A stretch of DNA of 61,445 nucleotides. Source: a virus. The position numbers and the translations under genes were made by a program. Within the stretch, counting starts at the first letter, position 1; each line of letters opens with the position of its first letter. Location: positions 1-61,445 of IMG/VR virus record IMGVR_UViG_3300046477_000714. The stretch is one strand, 5' to 3'. Shown piece by piece: positions 1,094-60,094 of the stretch. The notes beneath the pieces were generated by a model, which saw nothing but the letters and a program-made list of their open reading frames with translations, had not been told where the DNA came from and did no database searches.

Positions 1094-1542
1094 CGCTCGA
1101 GATCCGGTTGATCCTGATCGCAGTCCTCGCAGTGGGGCTGCTGGCTGGGTTCAACCGTTTCATCGCCAGCGAGCGCGCAGCCGGTGCAGCCGAGTGCCGC
1201 GCAGCCCAGGCGAAGGTCGATGCGGCTGCAGCCGACCGCCACGAGAAAGCAGCACAGGAGATCACACGTGAGTCAGCAAAGATGGAAGCGAAGCGTGTGG
1301 ACGATGCTCAGTCCCTCGCTGTTGCTGGTAGCAGGCTGCGCGACCGATATGCCGCAGCCATCCAGCCAAGCAGCAATCCCGCCTCTGCCGCAGTCGGCGC
1401 GCCAGCACCCGCGGCCCCCGTACTGTCAACCGACATGTTCGGAGCAGCTGAAGAAAGACTTCGATTCCTGGCTGCAGAAGCAGACCGCAGCCGAGACGAA
1501 GGAACCGACTGCGAGCGGCGTTACGACTCGCTGAAGGAGTAA
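1090..1542 (+). CDS. Rz: Inner-membrane spanin (Rz-like)
   Basis: 150 residues with an N-terminal membrane anchor (about 5-22, IRLILIAVLAVGLLAGF) followed by a charged helical periplasmic domain, the layout of i-spanins. These proteins bridge to an outer-membrane lipoprotein (Rz1) and fuse the two membranes in the last step of lysis of Gram-negative hosts. The call is supported by the nested lipoprotein gene in the +1 frame within its 3' half. ATGA overlap with the gene upstream. Confidence 0.85.
   Translation: MTLEIRLILIAVLAVGLLAGFNRFIASERAAGAAECRAAQAKVDAAAADRHEKAAQEITRESAKMEAKRVDDAQSLAVAGSRLRDRYAAAIQPSSNPASAAVGAPAPAAPVLSTDMFGAAEERLRFLAAEADRSRDEGTDCERRYDSLKE
1268..1534 (+). CDS. Rz1: Outer-membrane spanin lipoprotein (Rz1-like), nested in Rz
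   Basis: This reading frame lies entirely inside the Rz gene in another frame. It has a signal peptide ending in the lipobox LLLVAGC and a mature part of about 50 residues rich in proline and glutamine, as in Rz1 o-spanins. Possible starts are GTG 1268 (88 aa), GTG 1295 and ATG 1304 (76 aa); the sequence does not decide between them. The lipobox in the right frame under an i-spanin gene makes the call firm even though sequence conservation in this family is low. Confidence 0.85.
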   Translation: MSQQRWKRSVWTMLSPSLLLVAGCATDMPQPSSQAAIPPLPQSARQHPRPPYCQPTCSEQLKKDFDSWLQKQTAAETKEPTASGVTTR

Positions 1543-1545
1543 ACG

Positions 1546-1731
1546 ATGGCAGGCAAGAACTTCATCGCCAAAGCGATCAAACGCCCCGGTCAACTGCACA
1601 AGGACACCGGCACACCGATGGGTCAGAAGATCCCTCAGTCGAAGATCAAGGCAGCGGAGAAGAAGGGTGGCGCTGTCGGTAAGCGCGCCCAGTTCGCCGA
1701 GACGCTGGCCAAGCTCAGACCGAAAAAGTAG
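1546..1731 (+). CDS. Small basic conserved phage protein
   Basis: 61 residues, strongly basic (MAGKNFIAKAIKRPGQLHK... KIPQSKIKAAEKKGG). I recognise this as a widespread short protein of phages that ends many structural or lysis operons; its function is unknown. Good Shine-Dalgarno GAAGGAG before the ATG. Its last 17 bases overlap the 3' end of the convergent gene at 1715, with no terminator between the two operons. Confidence 0.75.
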   Translation: MAGKNFIAKAIKRPGQLHKDTGTPMGQKIPQSKIKAAEKKGGAVGKRAQFAETLAKLRPKK

Positions 1732-2437
1732 GCACGCCAGCCCGGCGCGCTGCGTCGAGCCAGACGTCATCGTGGGGCGCACCGCGCCAGCCTGGGAGCC
1801 ATGGGCCACCCAGCGTGAAGTGCGCGATGCCGCGCCCCGCGTTTTCCAGCGCGCATTCCTGCTCACCGACGAGCCAGTTCCATCGGGCATCGAGCCTGCC
1901 GATCTCGTTGTCGTTGAGCCAGTAGAACCCATGCAGGTCGCGGCCAGGGCGCTCGTTGATGTCGCGCAGTGACAGCCGCCAGTTGGCTGGGTGCAGGCAG
2001 TCGAAGAGCATGACGCTGGACCAGTTCTTGCGCGGGTAGACGGTCTGCTTCTGGTTGACCATCTTCCAGCCGTCCTTGGGTAGGTAGTCGTGCTTCACGA
2101 CGTACACCGGGAACCCAGGATCGATCTCGGTGAGCATCGTGCGCGGGTCCTCGAGGAAGACCACGTCGCAGTCCGTGAAGAGCGCCCAACGCTCCTGGCA
2201 GATCAGCGGCACGAGGAACCTGCTCACAGCGAACTCGGTGGACTTCGGCGCGTTGCTGACCAGATCGTAGGGTTGCCCACCCCGCTTGTCGGTGATGCGA
2301 GTCAGCATCCCCTGAGCGATCAGCTTCGAGGCCACGAGCAGTTCAGGCTGCGGAAAGTCACTGACTCGCTCCAGCGAGTGCTGGGCGGTCATGACCGCCG
2401 CATGTTCGTTGTGGTCGTAGCCGATGTAGAACTTCAT
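1715..2437 (-). CDS. Glycosyltransferase, GT8-like
   Basis: 240 residues. The N-terminus MKFYIGYDHNEHAAVMTAQHS and the metal-binding DxD motif in LFTDCDVVFLED match GT-A fold, family 8-like transferases, which move a sugar from a nucleotide-sugar to an acceptor. It is the last gene of a seven-gene minus-strand cluster (6455 to 1715) of sugar and methyl transferases with overlapping ends (ATGA with the gene upstream). Acceptor unknown: virion protein, host surface glycan or DNA are all possible. Confidence 0.75.
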   Translation of the reverse strand: MKFYIGYDHNEHAAVMTAQHSLERVSDFPQPELLVASKLIAQGMLTRITDKRGGQPYDLVSNAPKSTEFAVSRFLVPLICQERWALFTDCDVVFLEDPRTMLTEIDPGFPVYVVKHDYLPKDGWKMVNQKQTVYPRKNWSSVMLFDCLHPANWRLSLRDINERPGRDLHGFYWLNDNEIGRLDARWNWLVGEQECALENAGRGIAHFTLGGPWLPGWRGAPHDDVWLDAARRAGVPTFSV

Positions 2438-3201
2438 CTCACGCCTCTCCAGTACGCCTCTTCTCGGCGATGCTTCAGATCCATCCGGCGCGAGCGGCCG
2501 GTGCGCTTGCGCTCACCCTTCAGGTGGTCCATCACGGTCCCAAGGATACCGTTGACGAACGGATGCCCGGTCTTGTGGAACTCCCCCGACAACGAATGCC
2601 ACGGGGCACCCATCCGATCGACGGCCGCTTGTAGCGCATGGCAGTCCGTCCAGGCGTTCAATCCGAACAACGTGTCCTCGGTGTAGAGATGCTTGAACGC
2701 AGCCAGAAGACGAGGTGTGCACTCGTGCCGCATGTTGAACATGATGAACCCGGTTTCCGGGTACTTGTGCGATCGCCACAACCATGACAGCGCCGCTTCT
2801 GGCGGCAGCAGCTTGGCCAAGAACTCTTCGCTCACCGGGGCGTGGGTGACGATGTCGGCATCAGCCCAGATCAGCACGTCGGCTTGCGTGTCGGTGGCGG
2901 CATCGGTCATCGCTGCCACCTTGTGGCTGAACCGCACAGCATCGAAGAGCATCTGGTAGGGCTTGGCGTGGACGATACCGTTGTGCAAAGGGTTGGTCCG
3001 ATGCCGCAACTTGAACTCTGTCAGCCATCGTGGGAGGGAACGGATGTCATGCAGCGTAGGCAGCTTCGGATCGAACCCTTCAGCGTATAGCGTCAGGTTG
3101 ACCGACTTCGGCCAATGGCGTGCGAACGTCATGGCCATGCGCCGACCATATGCCATCCACCCGTTGGCGCTGCAGGTGGTCACGACTTGGTAGGTTGTCA
3201 T
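2434..3201 (-). CDS. Glycosyltransferase-like protein, GT-A type
   Basis: 255 residues from ATG 3201 (MTTYQVVTTCSANGW). The DxD-type motif ADADIVTHAP near residue 115 and a Trp/His-rich C-terminal half suggest a nucleotide-sugar transferase. In-frame codons extend upstream to 3348 but overlap the next gene by 150 bases and lack a Shine-Dalgarno, so 3201 is preferred; the ATG overlaps the stop of the upstream methyltransferase (ATGA). Part of the glycan cluster. Confidence 0.65.
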   Translation of the reverse strand: MTTYQVVTTCSANGWMAYGRRMAMTFARHWPKSVNLTLYAEGFDPKLPTLHDIRSLPRWLTEFKLRHRTNPLHNGIVHAKPYQMLFDAVRFSHKVAAMTDAATDTQADVLIWADADIVTHAPVSEEFLAKLLPPEAALSWLWRSHKYPETGFIMFNMRHECTPRLLAAFKHLYTEDTLFGLNAWTDCHALQAAVDRMGAPWHSLSGEFHKTGHPFVNGILGTVMDHLKGERKRTGRSRRMDLKHRREEAYWRGVR

Positions 3202-3734
3202 TGCGTCTCCGCAAGGATGAACGGGGTCTCGAGCCCCATGCTGCTGCGCATCTCGGTGAAGCGCTGCTCCCACCACACCATCGGTTTGAGTGTGACGTGC
3301 AGGTTGACGTCGGTACCGGGGAACGTCTTCTTGGCGGGCCGGCAGCACACGGAAGCCCAGATCGCTTTGTCGGCGAAGAGGAACAGATCACCGATCACCT
3401 GCTCGAGTTCCGACTCGGGCACGTGCTCGAGAACGTCACTGCACAACACGATGTCGTGCTTCCCATAGGGTCGCTCGTCATGCGCGGGGAACGCCGGGTC
3501 GTAGAGTTTGACGTGCCACCACTGCATGCCCCAATGGCGATGCAAACGGTGCGGCGCCTTGTACTGCTCACCGCGGCCACAGCCGTAGTCCAGCAGCGTG
3601 ACCGCTTTGTACTTCCGCACCAGATGCCGGATCTCATCCTTGTGCGACAGGATCGCGAAGCCTGGAAAGTGCACACCATCAGCCGCCATCTCGCGGTACT
3701 GGCTGATCAGGCTGTGGTCGTCGTCATTGGGCAT
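3198..3734 (-). CDS. Class I SAM-dependent methyltransferase
   Basis: 178 residues. Motif I LLDYGCGRGEQY binds S-adenosylmethionine; DIVLCSDVLEHV is the usual post-motif II. The start at ATG 3734 has a strong Shine-Dalgarno GGAGGGTCT on the minus strand and overlaps the previous stop by 11 bases; an earlier in-frame start at 3764 is less likely. The substrate is unknown; the position between transferase genes suggests a sugar or glycan. Confidence 0.8.
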   Translation of the reverse strand: MPNDDDHSLISQYREMAADGVHFPGFAILSHKDEIRHLVRKYKAVTLLDYGCGRGEQYKAPHRLHRHWGMQWWHVKLYDPAFPAHDERPYGKHDIVLCSDVLEHVPESELEQVIGDLFLFADKAIWASVCCRPAKKTFPGTDVNLHVTLKPMVWWEQRFTEMRSSMGLETPFILAETQ

Positions 3735-4290
3735 AGACCCTCCGATAGAAACCGATCCACTCATCGAGGTACCCCAGCGTGATGTGGGTGGATCGGAAAC
3801 CCCCGCGGGTCAAGGCGCGATTCAAGTCGATGGGCTCGCCACCGGAGCGCTCGTCGCGCACCATAGGATTAGTGGCGTACGGTGGCAGACGCAGCACCAG
3901 CAGATCGCTGCAAAACGGAAGCATCTCGCTCAGCACGACCTCGGGCTTGCGCAGCTTGTGCAAGATCGCCAGCATCAGCACCACGTTGTACGTCCGTTTG
4001 GGACGCCATTCGTCCATGTCACCTTGTTCGAACGTGATCGGGAGATCGCCGCGCAACTCGTTGGCTGCAGCGATCGCTTGCGGTCGGATCTCGACCCCAT
4101 GGATGGCGACGGCACCGTGCTTGATCAACTCGATGTCGATGAGCCCTTCGGCGCAACCGAGATCCAGCACGGTCTTGCCAGCGACGTTTTGCAGCAGGTA
4201 GGTTAGCCCCTGCATCTGCTGGTCGACCGTTCGGTCGCCAACCTCTCCCCTCACAGGGAACCAGTGTTTGTGCGGCTTAGCCACGCCCAT
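3724..4290 (-). CDS. Class I SAM-dependent methyltransferase
   Basis: 188 residues from ATG 4290, which has the Shine-Dalgarno AAGGAAAGG; the ATG at 4323 would lengthen the overlap with the upstream gene. SAM-binding motif VLDLGCAEGLIDIELIKHGA and acidic GVEIRPQ. FkbM-like or small-molecule O-methyltransferase is possible, but no acceptor-specific motif is visible. Second of two adjacent but dissimilar methyltransferases in the glycan cluster. Confidence 0.8.
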   Translation of the reverse strand: MGVAKPHKHWFPVRGEVGDRTVDQQMQGLTYLLQNVAGKTVLDLGCAEGLIDIELIKHGAVAIHGVEIRPQAIAAANELRGDLPITFEQGDMDEWRPKRTYNVVLMLAILHKLRKPEVVLSEMLPFCSDLLVLRLPPYATNPMVRDERSGGEPIDLNRALTRGGFRSTHITLGYLDEWIGFYRRVYAQ

Positions 4291-5012
4291 GCCTTTCCTT
4301 GTTTCAACTCCTCCAGGGTCCATTGATTATCCGCCAAGACTTGAAAAGCGTGTAGCCTTTGGTCCTTGGTTGGGTCGGTCGACATTACCCAGTCAGCCAA
4401 AGCATGGCGTGAGTCGGTGACCACCGACACCCCGTGCAGCAGCGCCGTGATCGCCGCCGCTGACGTGTGGGTCACGAGCCGATGGGCGTCTGCCAGATCC
4501 TCGGGCAGTGTCTTGGCAAGCTCGTGCTTGTTGGCCGACCATGACCGGATCTTGATCTCGCGGGTCGGCCACGTGTTGGCGCACAACCGTACGGTCTCGG
4601 CTAGCCAATCGCCGTGGTAGCCGATCGTCAGTTCCATGTGGACGTCTGACTGCGGCACGATCAGGATGTGGCCCTCGTCGAGATCTTGGAACGGTTTGAT
4701 CTTCGGATCGAACCCACCGAAGATGGCGCGCAGCCGGGCGCCTGACGACAGGTCGCGCCCGTGATACTGCAGGTCATTCTTGGTCACGCGGAAATGCGTG
4801 TGGCGCGAGTCATCGAAATAAGAGTTGTCGATGTAGTAGTACGGTCGACCGCTCTTCAACACCTGCCGCCACGTGTTGACGTTGCCCGGCACGATGCCGC
4901 TGAACACCGCGGCATCCTCGGTGCACCCACGGCGCATGGCGCCTTCGATGAAGAACTGGCAGAGTTCGAACGACTTGCGCTTGCCAGGGACCGGGTACGC
5001 GTTCATGACCAT
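4251..5012 (-). CDS. Glycosyltransferase-like protein, GT-B type
   Basis: 253 residues. The C-terminal part ADAHRLVTHTSAAAITALLHGVSVV resembles the nucleotide-sugar-binding half of GT-B enzymes of capsule or lipopolysaccharide synthesis (a conserved His/Thr-Ser followed by a donor-binding helix). No catalytic residues can be assigned with certainty. Its end overlaps the next gene by 40 bases. Alternative start at the third codon (MNAYPVP). Confidence 0.55.
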   Translation of the reverse strand: MVMNAYPVPGKRKSFELCQFFIEGAMRRGCTEDAAVFSGIVPGNVNTWRQVLKSGRPYYYIDNSYFDDSRHTHFRVTKNDLQYHGRDLSSGARLRAIFGGFDPKIKPFQDLDEGHILIVPQSDVHMELTIGYHGDWLAETVRLCANTWPTREIKIRSWSANKHELAKTLPEDLADAHRLVTHTSAAAITALLHGVSVVTDSRHALADWVMSTDPTKDQRLHAFQVLADNQWTLEELKQGKAWAWLSRTNTGSL

Positions 5013-5821
5013 TTCGCTTCTCCCAGGTGAGCCAGCATGCGAGCCAGCGGCTCACCGGTGGCGATCTCTTCGAAGTGCCACTGCCCGTGCGCCATCTTGT
5101 GCAGGGCTTTGGCGCGAGCTTCGTCGCTGTCTTTCGGTGGGTGTTTGATCAGGCCCAGGTTGAATCGCCAAGCCCCATCAGAGCAGATCCAATGGGGCGC
5201 GTCGAAGAAGACTGGGTAGCCTTCCACCATGGCGCGCACACCGCTGCCGCTGGACCAGATCACGCAGCTGCGCGCTTTCTTCAGGTCGTCCGTCAGCGCT
5301 GTCTTGGGCTTGAAGTTGCCAGGGTGTTGACGCAGTTTGGTCGGCACACCGTTCGCCGAGAGTTTGGTCGCGATACGCTCGGCCCACTGCGATGGACTCG
5401 CCATCAAAGGTGTGCCGATACCGCGCTGGCCGCATACCAGGGCATAGCCCAAGTCGGAGCAGTCATGGTACGGCTTGACCTCGATCTCGAGTTTGCTGAA
5501 CCGATCCTCGTCGCCGACCGGGAACCAACCCGAGCCGTTGTGGCCGTGCACGCTCAGCGCGTAGTAGGTCTTGTCGACCTTCTGGATGTAGCCGTTCTCG
5601 GCCACGATCACAGTGCCGCCGCGCGCCTCCCATTCGGTGGCCACGTTGTCGTCGGCGCCCCGCTTCCGGTTCCACAGGATCAGCAGGTCTTCCTTGCTGT
5701 CAGGGTGCACGTTGTGCGGGACAACTCGGTAGCCATGCTTGGCCAGCATCTTCTCGAAGGCATCCCTTCGATAGAAGGGTTCCTTGCGGATGGTGAGGAC
5801 TGCGCGTCTACCGAGTGCCAT
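5003..5821 (-). CDS. Glycosyltransferase-like / polysaccharide-synthesis-like protein
   Basis: 272 residues from ATG 5821 (MALGRRAVLTIRKEPF), with Shine-Dalgarno GGAGAG. The C-terminal part KKARSCVIWSSGSGVRAMVEGYPVFF has the same layout as the 4251-5012 protein (a Ser/Thr-rich strand then a helix and a strand ending in a gene-variable loop), so the two may be distant paralogues of GT-B type. Family not recognised further. Overlaps its downstream neighbour by 10 bases. Confidence 0.5.
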   Translation of the reverse strand: MALGRRAVLTIRKEPFYRRDAFEKMLAKHGYRVVPHNVHPDSKEDLLILWNRKRGADDNVATEWEARGGTVIVAENGYIQKVDKTYYALSVHGHNGSGWFPVGDEDRFSKLEIEVKPYHDCSDLGYALVCGQRGIGTPLMASPSQWAERIATKLSANGVPTKLRQHPGNFKPKTALTDDLKKARSCVIWSSGSGVRAMVEGYPVFFDAPHWICSDGAWRFNLGLIKHPPKDSDEARAKALHKMAHGQWHFEEIATGEPLARMLAHLGEAKWS

Positions 5822-53066: not shown

Positions 53067-54664
53067 TGCCATACGGTCTCGGTCTTGGCGCCAGCATCGC
53101 TGGCGAGGCGGCGCAGGGGATTCAATCCGGCTTCAACATGGGGCTGCAGCAGTCCCAGTTCGAAGAGAACAAACGCCGGAACCAGTTCGAGGAGACGCGT
53201 CAGACCGCCGCCGATGCGCGTGCGGCGGACGAACTCGCGCTGCGCCAGAAGGGCGAGCAACGCGCCCAGCAGGCGGCGGACGATGCCACCGCTGAACGTG
53301 GCGTCAACGCGCTGCTGGGCCGGCAGAAGGCGATCATCACCGCTGGCCAACAAGCCCAGCTGAACGGTCAACCGCTCGACCCCACGATGGTCGACGAGTA
53401 CGGCAAGAACGCAGCGCTGCTCAAGCAGACGGCAAAGAACTGGGTGTCGCGCCTCCAGACCGGCAAGGTCGATCTGGACGCTGCGCCAGCGCGCGACGTC
53501 TACGCCAACATGTCCGCGGCCACCGGCATGAATCTGGCCGACATGAAAGCGTTGCCCCAAGGCGTCGATGACTGGAAGACCGGCATGGATACCGGCAACC
53601 ACCAGTTGATGCTCAAGGGTGCGAACACGATCATGGCGCCGCGTCTGCGCATGGGCATCGGTGACGATGATCCCAACGGCAGCGGTGGCAAGATCGTCAG
53701 CAAGCAACTGCTCGACATCTCGCCTGCGCGCGATGGCAATGGCGTCGATCATCCTGACAAGTTCATCCCGATCATCCGCACGACGGTGAAGCTGCCCGAT
53801 GGCAGCACGAAGTACTACGACGCCCCATCGACTCTCGGTGGCACGACGGACCCCAACGCGCCGGTGCAACCAGTCAGCATCCAAGATGCGATGGACTTCG
53901 TCGGCCACGCTGGCAACTTCGCCACCGCGATGAGTCATCCTGCTCTGATGTCGAAGCTCGAGCAGGGCGCGAAGGAACTGGATACCGAGCATGTCCAGGC
54001 GCTCGACGAACTGACGAACCTGACTCGGCCTACGATGAAGCCGAAGCAGATGATCGTGCACGGCGGCAACAAGAACACGCTGGTCAACATCAACGAGACC
54101 ACCGGCAAGATCATCAACCAGACCGAGTACGGTGTCGGCGCAACCCCGCGCAACTTCAACCCGAACACCGGTGGCGGCGGGACGCTGCGCGCGCAACTGC
54201 GGGCGCTCGACGAAGACAAAGCCAACGGTGTCTACGACGACGATCCCGACCAGTACGAGCAGGATCGTCACGACATCATCATGCGTGCCGGTCGGGCGCA
54301 GACCGGTGCCGGCAAGGGTCCGAGCAGCGCCGAGATCAACAGTATCGGCAATGACGCTGCGAATCGCGCTGCAAGCACGCAGGGCTTGCACTACGACAAG
54401 ACGGCTGGGGTCTACAAGGACAATGCTGGCAACCGCGCTACAGCTGACCAGATGAAGGGCATCGATGCCGCACGGGAAGGTGCTCTCACTGTCGCGCGCA
54501 ACAACGCGGCGAATGGCAAGCGCACATCGGGCGACGAGGTCACGAAGGCTGTCAACACCGCTGCACCTCCTGGCAAACCCAAGTACCAAGAGGGCCAGAC
54601 AGCAACCGGTCCCAACGGTGCCAAGATGGTCTTCAAGGGTGGCGTATGGCAAGCCCTCAAGTAG
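53066..54664 (+). CDS. Large internal virion/ejection protein
   Basis: 532 residues from ATG 53066 (MPYGLGLGASIAGEAAQGIQSGF). Hydrophobic N-terminus, long helical region with heptads (NRRNQFEETRQTAADARAADELALRQKGEQRAQQAADD), then beta-rich and disordered tail. Size and place suggest a core protein that enters the cell with DNA. The gene end overlaps the next gene by 19 bases. Confidence 0.65.
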   Translation: MPYGLGLGASIAGEAAQGIQSGFNMGLQQSQFEENKRRNQFEETRQTAADARAADELALRQKGEQRAQQAADDATAERGVNALLGRQKAIITAGQQAQLNGQPLDPTMVDEYGKNAALLKQTAKNWVSRLQTGKVDLDAAPARDVYANMSAATGMNLADMKALPQGVDDWKTGMDTGNHQLMLKGANTIMAPRLRMGIGDDDPNGSGGKIVSKQLLDISPARDGNGVDHPDKFIPIIRTTVKLPDGSTKYYDAPSTLGGTTDPNAPVQPVSIQDAMDFVGHAGNFATAMSHPALMSKLEQGAKELDTEHVQALDELTNLTRPTMKPKQMIVHGGNKNTLVNINETTGKIINQTEYGVGATPRNFNPNTGGGGTLRAQLRALDEDKANGVYDDDPDQYEQDRHDIIMRAGRAQTGAGKGPSSAEINSIGNDAANRAASTQGLHYDKTAGVYKDNAGNRATADQMKGIDAAREGALTVARNNAANGKRTSGDEVTKAVNTAAPPGKPKYQEGQTATGPNGAKMVFKGGVWQALK

Positions 54665-57600
54665 CAGCCCCGAGCGCAGATCTTCCGCCTGGGTTCACCG
54701 CTGATCCCGCCGAATTGCCGGCGGGGTTCAAGGTCGATGAGCCCGCGGCCAAGCCGGCGGGCTTCATCGAGACGGCGCTGCGCACCGTCGCGCAGAGTGC
54801 CGCGCCGATCATCCGCACTGTGGGTCTGGCCGAGTCGACGCTGCAAGGCGCGATTCGCGGCAAGGAAGCCCAGGATCAGGTCATCGCGCGCACCGAAGAG
54901 CAAGTCAAACGGCTCAAGGAAGAGTACGACTGGAAGCCGGGCGAGACCCCGAACACCGCTGGCGAATTCGTCGGTGGTGTGGCCAGCATGCCCCAGCAGT
55001 TGCTGGGCCAGGGCGTGGCCCCAGGCGTCAACCGCGCAGCCGAAGTGATCGAGCGCGGCGGCACGGGCGCCGAAGCTGCAACCGCTGGCGCGGCTACGGG
55101 CGCTGTCGCCCAGTTGCTGCAGATGTTGCCTATGGGTGCTGGCAAGACCATCCAGAAAGCTGTCGGTGGTGGCGCTGTACGTCAGACCGTCACCGGCGCC
55201 GTGGGTGGCGCTGCGACGAACGTTGTCGCGGGCGCGGCAGGGCGCGCTGTCGAGAACGCGGCGCTGCCAGAGGCGCCGTCCGGTGACATGGGTCCTCCCG
55301 AGGAGGACAAATACGCAGATTTGCGTCAGGCCCCGCTCGATGCAAAGGCGGCGCTGACTGAGGCCGGCGTGGGCGCTGCGTTCGGTGCGCTCGGTGTGCA
55401 CCAGACACGGAAAGCTGCGGCCGCGCATGCAAAGGCGAACCCGCCCCCGCCACCTTTCCCCACCGACAAGATGGAAGACCTGGGCGACGGTACGTTCCGC
55501 ACGCCCAACGGCAGCACGATCACCCAAGAGGATTGGACGACGCGCAGCCAGAAGATCCGCGATGGGTGGATGGAACCTGCGCCCAAGGAAGCGGAGACGC
55601 CCAAACTGCAGGAAGAGATCGATCGTCTGCGCGAGGAACACCCCGCCGGCCCGGTGGCCGACGTGCTAGTGCAGGTGGCCAAGCAGCGCGACGAGACACG
55701 GCAGAAGAAAGCGCAAGCCGATGAACTGCGTGCTGCCGCTGACAAGACCACGGATATCGAGATCAAGAAGGCCTTGAATGCGAAGGCCGACAAGCTCGAT
55801 CCGCGCGAGCAGGTCCCCGTTGGTCAAACCAAAGAGGGCCAGCCCGAGATCAAGACCGAAGAGACGAAGAAGATTCCCGTCGGTGAGACGACCGAAGGGC
55901 AACCCGAGATCAAGACCGAAAAGACGGAACCGATCCCCAAGGGTGAGGTGACCGAGGAGAAGATCCCTGTTGGCGAGACCAATGAGGTCCCCGGCGAAGG
56001 CGGGCAGATCCCCGTTGGTGAAGCCAAAGAGATCACGGGCTCTGGTGTCGAACCGACACCTGAGCCAAAGGCCGGCTCCATCCCGAAAGGTGAAGCCAAG
56101 GAACTCTACATTCCACCGGAGAAACGCAATGCCGCTGATCAAGTCACCAAGCAAGAAGGCAGTGGGGCAGAACATCAAAACGGAAGTGGCAGCGGGAAAG
56201 CCACCGAAGCAAGCGGTGGCAATCGCCCTGAACACCCAGCGGAGGGCGGGGGGCGGGTCGGAGAGGAACGCACCAGCGGGCCCAAGAAACCCGGTGCCAA
56301 TGAAAAAACCAGTCTTGACGTCGCCGGTGCCGGTGAAGCGAAAGGCGAAGGGCGGGTACTGACGTTCCCGAAGATCGAAGAGTCGATGCTCGGGGCGCGC
56401 GAGCCCACGGTTGAAGGTCTACCGAAAGGTGAAGACCGCGGTGTGACGCACGCGCGCAGGACCCTGAACGAGGGCATGCGCGAGGGCACCGTCCACAAGG
56501 ATGGTGGCGCGCTGGCGCTGTGGGCGCTCGATCGCAACCCGAATCTGGCGCGTGGTCTGCGCATCGAACCGAAGGCCAAAGGTGATCACGCGCTCGGACT
56601 CTACGACCACGCGAAGCGCGTGATCGAATTGTTCAAGGGCCAGAACACGCGCACCGCGGTGCACGAGATCTTCCACCACGCCGAACGGATGATGCCTGAC
56701 TTCGTGCAGCGCTCGATCCGTCGCGAGTGGATCAAGCACGTCAACGATCGGATCTTCGAGACCAAGGACCCGAAAGAGAAACAGGCCTTGCGCGACATCA
56801 TCGCCGCATCGCGTGGTGACAACGAAGCGCACGGCCGGTTGATGGACCGGTTCAAAGATGGCACCCTCGATAAGGACAAGTGGTACCACCTGACGAACCC
56901 GTCGGAGTTCTGGGCAGTCAATGCTGCGCGTCTGCTACATGAGCGCCACACGAGCCGTGGCTCTTGGCGCTCGCAAGCCAAACAGTGGATGAAGGAGATG
57001 GTCGAGCACGTCAAGAGCGCTGTCGGCGTCCGCTCCGATTCGGCTGTGCTCAAAGGCATCGACACAGTGCTGAACCCGAAGGTGGTTCGCAGCGAGCGCT
57101 CCGGCGCCAAGATGCTCGCCGACGGTGGAGGCAGCACGCCACGGAAAGTGCCACGAGACTTCCAAGACGTAGCCGGCAAACCAGCGAAGCGTGAACTCGG
57201 TGACGAGACGCGTGGCGAACGCTTCGTGCGCTCGTGGACTGACCGCTTCAATCGGGTGCTCAAGCTGCAGAAGACCGAGGCACCGAAGAGCGAGAAGGCC
57301 GACATCTACCTGCACGATGTGCTCTTCCAGGGGCGCGCGCAGCACCGCGGCGAACTGCTGGAGAAGGAGCACATCAAGCCTTTGGGCAAGGCGCTCGAGG
57401 AAGCCAAGAAGCAAGACCTGACGGTCACCGATGCCGACGACTACCTCACGGCGCTGCACGCGCCCGAGCGCAATCGCGAGATCGCCAAGATCAACCCGAA
57501 GCTGCCCGACGGCGGCTCGGGCATGACCAACAAGCAAGCCGCGGACATTCTCAAGGGCTACACGCCTGAGCAGAAGGCAGCGCTCGACAAGGTCGCCGGT

Positions 57601-59769
57601 ATCGTGCGCGGCATGAACAAGGCCAAGCTCGACGCGATGGTGGCCGATGGGCTGATCAAGCCTGAGCTTCGCGATGCGCTCAACCGCAAGTACAAGAACT
57701 ACGTGCCGCTGAAGAGCCTCGAAGATGAGGATGCGCACCTGGGCATCGGGCAAGGCTACTCGATGCGGCCCAACGACATCAAGGAAGCGCTGGGCCGGCG
57801 CAGCCGCTCGAGCAGCCCGATCGCCGCCAGCATGATGGATGCCGCGCGCGGGATCGTGCGCGGCGAGAAAGCGCGCGTCGACCAGTCGATCTGGGAGTAC
57901 TCGCAGAACAAGGACGCGCACGACTTCATCAAACCGTACGACGAGAACAAGCCACCGCCCGAGGTGATGAAGAACGTCAAGGGCTCGGATGGTCAGGTCA
58001 AGTCGGTGGTCGACCCAAACAAGGTGCGCGACTACACGCTGGATCTCGTCGTCGATGGCGAGCCCAAGAAGGTCTTCATCCCAGACCAGTTGCTGCGTGA
58101 TCAGCTGAAGAAGATCGCGCAGACCAACGACGTCGGTCCCCGGTTGGCGAAGATCGGCAAGGTCACCGGCACGGTGGGCCGGATGCTGACCGAGTTCAAC
58201 CCAGCGTTCACCGTCCCCAATGCGGTGAAGGATGCGATCACCGCTGGTATCCGCGCGAAGGCGGATGGAATCACCCCGCTCAAACTCCTAGGTGGCATCC
58301 CCAAAGCCTGGGGTGAGATCACGAACTACAAGCTGGGTCGCGACACTCCGGGTGCGAAAGCCTACGAGGAGTTCCTGTCTGCCGGTGGCAAGACGGGCGC
58401 CTACGGTGTCACCGATCTGAGCGAGACGCTGAAGAAACTCGAGCACATGGGTGCCGACATCAGTGATACGAAGCATGCGTCGGGCACGATCGCGCGCAAG
58501 ACGAAGCAAGCGTTCGGTGCCGCGGCACACCTGATGTCGAACATGAACGAGGTGATGGAGTACGCCACTCGCTTCTCAGCGTTCAAGGAAGCCCGAGCCG
58601 TCGGCAAGTCCGTGAAGGAATCTGCGCGCATCGCGAAAGAGATCACGGTGAACTTCAACCGCTCGGGTGAGGAGAGCCGCAAGCTCAACGCTGTGTTGGT
58701 GTTCGCCAATGCCGCGCTGCAGGGTGCGCGCAACACCGTCGTCTACGCGAAGCACCCAGCTGTGGTGAAGGGCATGCTCGGTCTGACGGCGCTCGGTGCG
58801 GCCGCACAGGCATGGAACGAGAACATGGGCGGCATGGACGAGGACACTGGCGAGTTGAACGCCAACACCCAGAGTGATGTCGTCGCCGACAAGAACCTGT
58901 CGTTGATGATGCCGAACTCGCGCAGCGGGCTCAAGATCCCGATGCCGCCCGAGTACGCATTCCCGTTCACGCTCGGACGTCGGCTGTACCGGTTGTTCTC
59001 TCAGGGCAACGTAGGCCGCGAGGCTACCGGCATCGTTGGCGCTGCGCTCGATGCTGCACTCCCTGTGCGCCTGCCTGAGATCGGACCGCAAGGTGCGACG
59101 CTCTCGTCGCTCAAGGCCGTGGTGCCCACACCGGTGGCCCCGCTCGCAGATCTGTTGACCAACACGAACTACTTCGGTCAACCGATCGTGCCGGATCGGC
59201 ATGACACGACGAGCCCTGCGCCATACTTCCGCTCGAGCCGGCGCACGACGTCGGAGTTCGCCAAGGACTTCTCCGAAGCGTTGAACACGGCGACCGGCGG
59301 CGACAAGATCAAGCCGGGTGGTTCCGAAAAGTATCTCGGTCCCATCGTGTCTCCCGAGGGCATGGAGTACCTCGTGGGCTACTACACCGGTGGCGTCGGC
59401 CAGATCGCGATGCAGTCGAAGAACCTCGTGAACGCTGCCACCAAGGGTGAGGATCTCGACATCAACAAGGTACCGATCGCCAACCGCTTCGCGTTCCAAG
59501 AAGCGAAGAGCTACACGAGCCGTCGGTACCAAGAACTCAAGCCTGAGTTCGACTATGCAATCGATTACGAGAAGAACGACCAATCGGCTAAGGTGGACCC
59601 GAAGGTCATGCGTGCGCTCGACGCCTACAAGGATTCCGAGCATGAGCTTCGGGGTCTGTTCAAGCAGCTGAAGGGCGCCGAAGGCAACGAGCGCACGCAG
59701 GTAGAATCCGACATCAAACGCGCGCAATCCCGAGTCATTCGCGCCTACAACGGGCAACCGTCGCAGTGA
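54646..59769 (+). CDS. Giant polyvalent ejection protein with zincin and LPD38-like domains
   Basis: 1,707 residues. In order: hydrophobic helical N-terminal region (to about 230), coiled coils, a repeat stretch with six copies of (I/V)P(V/K)G(E/Q)xxE (about 390-490), a low-complexity linker that overlaps another gene (495-572), a zinc-peptidase-like domain with HEIFHH (673-678) and Glu754 in NPSEFWAVNAAR, a domain with KNYVPLKSLEDEDAHLG, and an LPD38-type module (about 1270-1400, AFGAAAHLMSNMNEVMEYATRFSAFKEARAVGKS). Such polyvalent proteins are carried in virions and injected with the DNA to act early in the host. Target of the putative protease unknown. Confidence 0.75.
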   Translation: MASPQVAAPSADLPPGFTADPAELPAGFKVDEPAAKPAGFIETALRTVAQSAAPIIRTVGLAESTLQGAIRGKEAQDQVIARTEEQVKRLKEEYDWKPGETPNTAGEFVGGVASMPQQLLGQGVAPGVNRAAEVIERGGTGAEAATAGAATGAVAQLLQMLPMGAGKTIQKAVGGGAVRQTVTGAVGGAATNVVAGAAGRAVENAALPEAPSGDMGPPEEDKYADLRQAPLDAKAALTEAGVGAAFGALGVHQTRKAAAAHAKANPPPPPFPTDKMEDLGDGTFRTPNGSTITQEDWTTRSQKIRDGWMEPAPKEAETPKLQEEIDRLREEHPAGPVADVLVQVAKQRDETRQKKAQADELRAAADKTTDIEIKKALNAKADKLDPREQVPVGQTKEGQPEIKTEETKKIPVGETTEGQPEIKTEKTEPIPKGEVTEEKIPVGETNEVPGEGGQIPVGEAKEITGSGVEPTPEPKAGSIPKGEAKELYIPPEKRNAADQVTKQEGSGAEHQNGSGSGKATEASGGNRPEHPAEGGGRVGEERTSGPKKPGANEKTSLDVAGAGEAKGEGRVLTFPKIEESMLGAREPTVEGLPKGEDRGVTHARRTLNEGMREGTVHKDGGALALWALDRNPNLARGLRIEPKAKGDHALGLYDHAKRVIELFKGQNTRTAVHEIFHHAERMMPDFVQRSIRREWIKHVNDRIFETKDPKEKQALRDIIAASRGDNEAHGRLMDRFKDGTLDKDKWYHLTNPSEFWAVNAARLLHERHTSRGSWRSQAKQWMKEMVEHVKSAVGVRSDSAVLKGIDTVLNPKVVRSERSGAKMLADGGGSTPRKVPRDFQDVAGKPAKRELGDETRGERFVRSWTDRFNRVLKLQKTEAPKSEKADIYLHDVLFQGRAQHRGELLEKEHIKPLGKALEEAKKQDLTVTDADDYLTALHAPERNREIAKINPKLPDGGSGMTNKQAADILKGYTPEQKAALDKVAGIVRGMNKAKLDAMVADGLIKPELRDALNRKYKNYVPLKSLEDEDAHLGIGQGYSMRPNDIKEALGRRSRSSSPIAASMMDAARGIVRGEKARVDQSIWEYSQNKDAHDFIKPYDENKPPPEVMKNVKGSDGQVKSVVDPNKVRDYTLDLVVDGEPKKVFIPDQLLRDQLKKIAQTNDVGPRLAKIGKVTGTVGRMLTEFNPAFTVPNAVKDAITAGIRAKADGITPLKLLGGIPKAWGEITNYKLGRDTPGAKAYEEFLSAGGKTGAYGVTDLSETLKKLEHMGADISDTKHASGTIARKTKQAFGAAAHLMSNMNEVMEYATRFSAFKEARAVGKSVKESARIAKEITVNFNRSGEESRKLNAVLVFANAALQGARNTVVYAKHPAVVKGMLGLTALGAAAQAWNENMGGMDEDTGELNANTQSDVVADKNLSLMMPNSRSGLKIPMPPEYAFPFTLGRRLYRLFSQGNVGREATGIVGAALDAALPVRLPEIGPQGATLSSLKAVVPTPVAPLADLLTNTNYFGQPIVPDRHDTTSPAPYFRSSRRTTSEFAKDFSEALNTATGGDKIKPGGSEKYLGPIVSPEGMEYLVGYYTGGVGQIAMQSKNLVNAATKGEDLDINKVPIANRFAFQEAKSYTSRRYQELKPEFDYAIDYEKNDQSAKVDPKVMRALDAYKDSEHELRGLFKQLKGAEGNERTQVESDIKRAQSRVIRAYNGQPSQ
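55816..56110 (+). repeat. Coding tandem repeats, IP(V/K)GExxE type
   Basis: Six degenerate copies of a motif (PVGQTKEGQPEIKTEET, PVGETTEGQPEIKTEKT, PKGEVTEEK, PVGETNEVPGE, PVGEAKEITG, PKGEAKEL) within the polyvalent protein; underlying DNA (GAGATCAAGACCGAA) is repeated almost exactly in the first two. Confidence 0.75.
56129..56362 (+). CDS. Small DUF6496-type protein nested in the ejection gene
   Basis: 77 residues from ATG 56129 in the +1 frame of the 1,707-residue gene, with a good Shine-Dalgarno (CGGAGAAA, 8 bases). MPLIKSPSKKAVGQNIKTEV and AAGKPPKQAVAIALNTQRRA are those of a widespread small basic phage/bacterial protein family (DUF6496), normally encoded alone. The host frame over the same bases is a Gly/Ser/Glu low-complexity linker. 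The family match shows the nested frame is a true gene. Its C-terminal half (NPVPMKKPVLTSPVPVKRKAKGGY) is basic and disordered. Confidence 0.8.
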   Translation: MPLIKSPSKKAVGQNIKTEVAAGKPPKQAVAIALNTQRRAGGGSERNAPAGPRNPVPMKKPVLTSPVPVKRKAKGGY

Positions 59770-59776
59770 GAGGTCC

Positions 59777-60094
59777 ATGGCAACGGCGAAGAGGAGTCCT
59801 CGGGTGGTGCGTGAAAAGTCTGGCTTTGAACGCCATGCACAGACAGTGCTCGGCGTTGTAGTCGCAGCCGGGATCATTTGGCTTGGCAACTCAAACGTCG
59901 ACCTGGGCAAAGAGTTGGCCAAGGCGACGGTCTCCATTTCGCAGCTACGCGAGGACATGCGTTCGATGCAAGACCAGATCGTGCGTGCGAACGCCGATCG
60001 CGTCACGACGAACGATTTCAACCGCGAGGTGCAGCGTCTCAACGAACGCATGGCGCGCATCGAGGCGCGCAGCGAATCGAAAGGGCGCCCGTGA
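59777..60094 (+). CDS. Membrane-anchored coiled-coil protein (holin-like)
   Basis: 105 residues. A transmembrane helix (TVLGVVVAAGIIWLGN, about 21-36) then a coiled coil (ELAKATVSISQLREDMRSMQDQIVRANADRV... VQRLNERMARIEAR). This layout is that of accessory holin-like proteins next to phage holins. Shine-Dalgarno GAGAGG. Confidence 0.65.
   Translation: MATAKRSPRVVREKSGFERHAQTVLGVVVAAGIIWLGNSNVDLGKELAKATVSISQLREDMRSMQDQIVRANADRVTTNDFNREVQRLNERMARIEARSESKGRP

Follow-up and report, generated by a model that had tools for sequence, protein, structure and literature searches.

This locus raises the question of whether a small reading frame lying wholly inside a much larger gene is itself a gene and, if so, which of the two frames is the older. 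The window, the 61,445-nt stretch of viral DNA that we analysed (IMG/VR record IMGVR_UViG_3300046477_000714), carries an ORF of 1707 aa at 54646-59769 on the + strand, and the features described within it lie on the same strand. Its product matches the Pfam family LPD38 (E 1.3e-28; 100.8 bits against a cut-off of 27), with the domain at residues 1413-1611 (58882-59478), and two PHROGs of unknown function, phrog_14770 (E 6.5e-101) and phrog_616 (E 3.6e-78). As in other LPD38 large polyvalent proteins, the LPD38 domain occupies the C-terminal part, with variable modules and linkers upstream; unlike in those proteins, one linker contains a nested gene. We refer to the enclosing gene as the host gene, and consider its product a putative ejection protein.

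The nested ORF runs from an ATG at 56129 to a stop codon at 56360-56362, and encodes 77 aa beginning MPLIKSPSKKAVGQNIKTEV. Since (56129-54646) mod 3 = 1, it occupies the +1 frame relative to the host gene, whose residues 495-572 (56128-56361) it overlaps. A GGAG Shine-Dalgarno sequence lies at 56118-56121, 7 nt before the ATG. Position, frame and ribosome site are thus as described in a sequence-only reading of this DNA. The open length of the ORF is unremarkable, because the host gene also contains several other-frame ORFs, 73-103 aa long, that are spurious. What distinguishes it is the result of profile searches with both translations, the check that had been proposed: the host protein has the matches given above, while the nested protein belongs to phrog_2423 (E 3.7e-19), its residues 1-44 aligning with positions 1-44 of the 52-position model. 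This match is not due to chance. In the alignment, all invariant core residues are present (M1, P2, L3, K5, A11, N15, E19, A22, G23, P25, K27, Q28, A29, A31, I32 and A33). The remaining 33 residues form a C-terminal tail outside the model.

Relatives of the nested protein are found in 548 phage records and at least 579 viral loci, mostly as free-standing genes. The nested frame therefore has both a family match and free-standing relatives, the two points on which the sequence-only reading had made its claim depend. That reading had also called the family well known; the usual free-standing arrangement is confirmed, but phrog_2423 is a PHROG of unknown function. Pfam and NCBIfam searches with the nested protein gave no significant match, a PDB sequence search using the family profile gave no match, and the family was not found under the name phrog_2423 in a literature search, nor did the terms searched turn up the gene in the E217 structure paper. 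An AlphaFold2 model of the nested protein has a mean pLDDT of 77.5, with two predicted helices (residues 9-21 and 26-40), a hairpin of ∼35 confident residues, and a low-confidence basic C-terminal tail.

The window phage is not alone in having this nesting: at least five other phage contigs, L019 (with its near-copy L016), L110, L158, L159 and L166, have a phrog_2423 gene nested within a homologous host gene. In all of these the phrog_2423 gene has the same relative frame as in the window. The L016 and L019 host proteins are 59-61% identical to that of the window, and a 45-aa phrog_2423 gene occupies exactly the same position. The nested copies sit in a linker, in most cases after IPxGEA-type repeats. 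In the window, repeats of the type (I/V)PxGE(A/T/V)xE, seen in the translation and aligned with L019, L089 and L090, lie directly upstream of the nested gene (55807-56106). The modules downstream of the nested copy differ, for example a GNAT-like segment in L158 and an FPKIEE block in the window. Several superficially similar cases, including L005 and L161, were rejected as nested: in these the long open frame is an upstream extension of the downstream gene, or else is spurious and has no homology to the host gene. One scan of genome contigs for relatives of the host gene found none.

Other relatives show the site in different states. Hosts that lack residues 495-572, the comparison called for by the sequence-only reading, exist: the L089 and L090 proteins (∼53% identical) are without the segment, the alignment passing from AKELY through ADKSRGETLAS to LDFPKL. 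The phrog_2423 family was not detected, at the thresholds used, in contigs L089, L090, L108, L109, L111 and L112, which may be fragments. In L012, the host homologue (1318-4989) is followed 11 nt downstream by a free-standing phrog_2423 gene (5001-5162) in relative frame +2. This adjacent arrangement brings to mind a fusion, in which the small gene was once a neighbour of the ejection gene, and loss of a stop codon or the joining of a downstream module carried the long frame across it. The position of the nested copy, at a point where downstream modules have been exchanged (the GNAT-like segment and FPKIEE block), fits such a history. We nevertheless regard fusion as unlikely: in L089 and L090 the host is one gene running uninterrupted across this point, with no small gene in it, and the +2 rather than +1 frame of the L012 gene means that an indel would also be needed.

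Our preferred reading, which we hold with good confidence, is instead that a phrog_2423 gene was captured in the linker of a putative ejection gene, is internally initiated, has both frames read, and has been lost or replaced in some phages. The direction had been presented as known, and the distributions agree. Genes of the phrog_2423 family occur widely, and elsewhere most of them stand alone; the overlapping host segment is seen solely in these phages. The nested gene is the older frame, because it has hundreds of relatives outside this host, and the enclosing peptide is the newer.

Overprinting is the appearance of a new frame inside an old gene, and distribution tells the old frame from the new (PMC8227390). 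The present locus is similar in that an old and a new protein are encoded by one stretch, each in its own frame. It is inverted with respect to the classical case, in which the internal gene is normally the new one and would be the narrower in distribution; here the internal frame is the widespread one, and by the same distribution criterion it is the older. The novelty here is the outer stretch rather than the old inner gene, and where each frame occurs shows in which direction the overlap arose.

The number of events is harder to read than their direction. A single insertion in a common ancestor, followed by ordinary divergence and several losses without replacement, is the history closest to that first proposed. 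The window and L019 share an identical junction and start region (57/60 nt), and the L019, L110, L158, L159 and L166 copies are close in DNA, with 90-100 of 120 positions identical in almost every nearest pair. Lineages differ, however, in where the copy sits in the host gene and in the modules flanking it, and the host tree places nested copies in two places. In the small-protein tree, the window copy groups with the free-standing copies of L004, L012, L005 and L006 (support 95/81, 95/88), apart from the five other nested copies. A single clade of all six is rejected by the AU test (p = 0.0125), the grouping of the window with L016 is borderline (p 0.0498), and the five copies without the window are not rejected (p 0.13), for groups that were named after the first tree was seen and are compared over 40 aligned columns. 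One insertion with plain descent explains the window copy poorly, because it is set apart from the L019 copy at the identical position. The single-insertion history is probably too simple, and we think it unlikely in its plain form. The placement is moderate evidence, from 40 columns of sequence, and suggests that an earlier copy at the identical site gave way to the one now in the window.

The pattern of substitution bears on whether the nested frame is in use. Between the window and L019, 38 differences over 120 nt fall 10, 7 and 21 at positions 1, 2 and 3 of the nested codons, corresponding to 21, 10 and 7 at host positions 1, 2 and 3. Over the whole host alignment the differences at host positions 1, 2 and 3 are 512, 401 and 821 (chi-square p 0.0004 against the 120-nt overlap). 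Amino acid identity is 29/40 in the nested frame and 17/39 in the host frame. Summed over the 15 pairs of the six nested copies, which are not independent of one another, the differences at nested positions 1, 2 and 3 are 133, 91 and 234. In addition, 57 of the 60 nt around the nested start (-30 to +29) agree between the window and L019, compared with ∼70% or less on either side, a pattern expected if the ribosome site has been preserved. The nested frame thus looks constrained as part of a dual-coding region. Together with the start, ribosome site and frame, all intact in six lineages, this makes it very unlikely that the frame is a decaying relic whose translation has ended, an idea favoured by the C-terminal tail outside the phrog_2423 model. 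Still less credible is a programmed frameshift yielding a truncated host protein that ends in the phrog_2423 domain. In the window, more than 50 codons upstream of the ATG are open in the nested frame, but the entire open frame is 62 codons in L158 and 54 in L166, few of them upstream of the ATG, and the nested copies share the Met-Pro-Leu start of the free-standing ones.

The host frame over the nested gene is a Gly/Glu/Ala/Gln-rich, low-complexity linker, as the sequence-only reading had it. Within the first 40 nested codons, the host frame is without stop codons, cysteine or aromatic residues in 6/6 nested copies, as compared with 0/48 GC-matched free-standing copies in the corresponding frame (Fisher p 4e-8, a value inflated by related sequences, as the rows are not independent). 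The whole overlap in the window is likewise free of all three. When the nested genes were randomly recoded with synonymous codons according to the codon usage of their own hosts, the host frame was clean in 0.4-21% of draws (combined P 1.3e-4 for the six). Conservation of the exact host peptide beyond that imposed by the nested frame was not seen, the window-L019 identity of 17/39 equalling the maximum for free-standing copies (mean 10, maximum 17). The host frame thus looks constrained as well, with selection on the peptide's character rather than its exact sequence. The linker had been interpreted as a de novo peptide; it is the newer frame, but it has not been free to drift, since stops, cysteines and aromatics are kept out.

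In the mechanism that we propose, a free-standing phrog_2423 gene would have been taken up into a disordered linker, in a frame that left the long ORF open. The nested gene's own Shine-Dalgarno sequence would most likely direct internal initiation on the same mRNA, while ribosomes in the long frame would read the same DNA as linker, so that the small product would be made alongside the large protein. Host phages would have carried, lost and probably replaced the copy at this site.

As to function, S1_022, or ORF22, of the Pbunavirus SCUT-S1, a myovirus unrelated to the window phage, is a phrog_2423 homologue. Purified virions yielded 7 peptides of ORF22, at 77% coverage (PMC6521218). Elsewhere the gene adjoins terminase, portal, GroES-like or head genes. 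The nested product, by analogy, probably belongs to the virion as a small basic protein of the head interior. If nested ORFs are discarded during annotation, a protein like this, with a probable place in the virion, can be overlooked. Like SCUT-S1 ORF22 and Bcep781 gp02, the nested protein has the MPLxKS...AGKPxKQAxAIA core and its own start site; unlike these free-standing members, which usually occupy head or packaging gene neighbourhoods, it is nested and has a longer C-terminal tail. The closest parallel for its association with a larger virion-assembly gene is in Obolenskvirus phages (AP22, AB_SZL3), in which the head maturation protease has phrog_2423 as its N-terminal domain, although there the domain is joined in frame, and in the window it is nested out of frame. 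Separately, phrog_2423 also forms the N-terminal domain of ORFs of ∼220-540 aa in L160, L162, L164, L171, L195, L198, L200 and L205.

A different Lys-rich ORF, of YGKKPVKKAYKKAVAP type, lies in the +1 frame of host-homologue linkers without phrog_2423, in L108 (8879-9004), L111 (939-1058), and L252 and L253 (around 2489-2653). It is preceded by a Shine-Dalgarno-like AGGAG in L108, L111 and L253. It has no family match, and its codon-position counts do not single out a constrained frame. Tentatively, the linker might be a place where genes for small basic proteins are regularly lodged in the +1 frame: phrog_2423 copies would come, go and be swapped in place while the long frame remained open, and the Lys-rich ORF would occupy the linker in these four contigs. 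We lean against this view. The six nested, several empty and one adjacent arrangements are natural replicates for asking what keeps a host frame open and which changes a disordered linker can accept.

Three further features of the region were observed. A conserved block downstream of the linker contains the motif HEIFHH (56662-56679), which resembles the zincin HExxH, with no profile match. The L016 and L019 hosts have a segment of ∼320 residues after KVPRDFQD (alignment columns ∼945-1263), flanked by (F/L)DPNDPNIS repeats, that is missing from the window host. Finally, an ORF at 59777-60094 weakly matches an Rz-like spanin family (phrog_89, E 9.2e-6).
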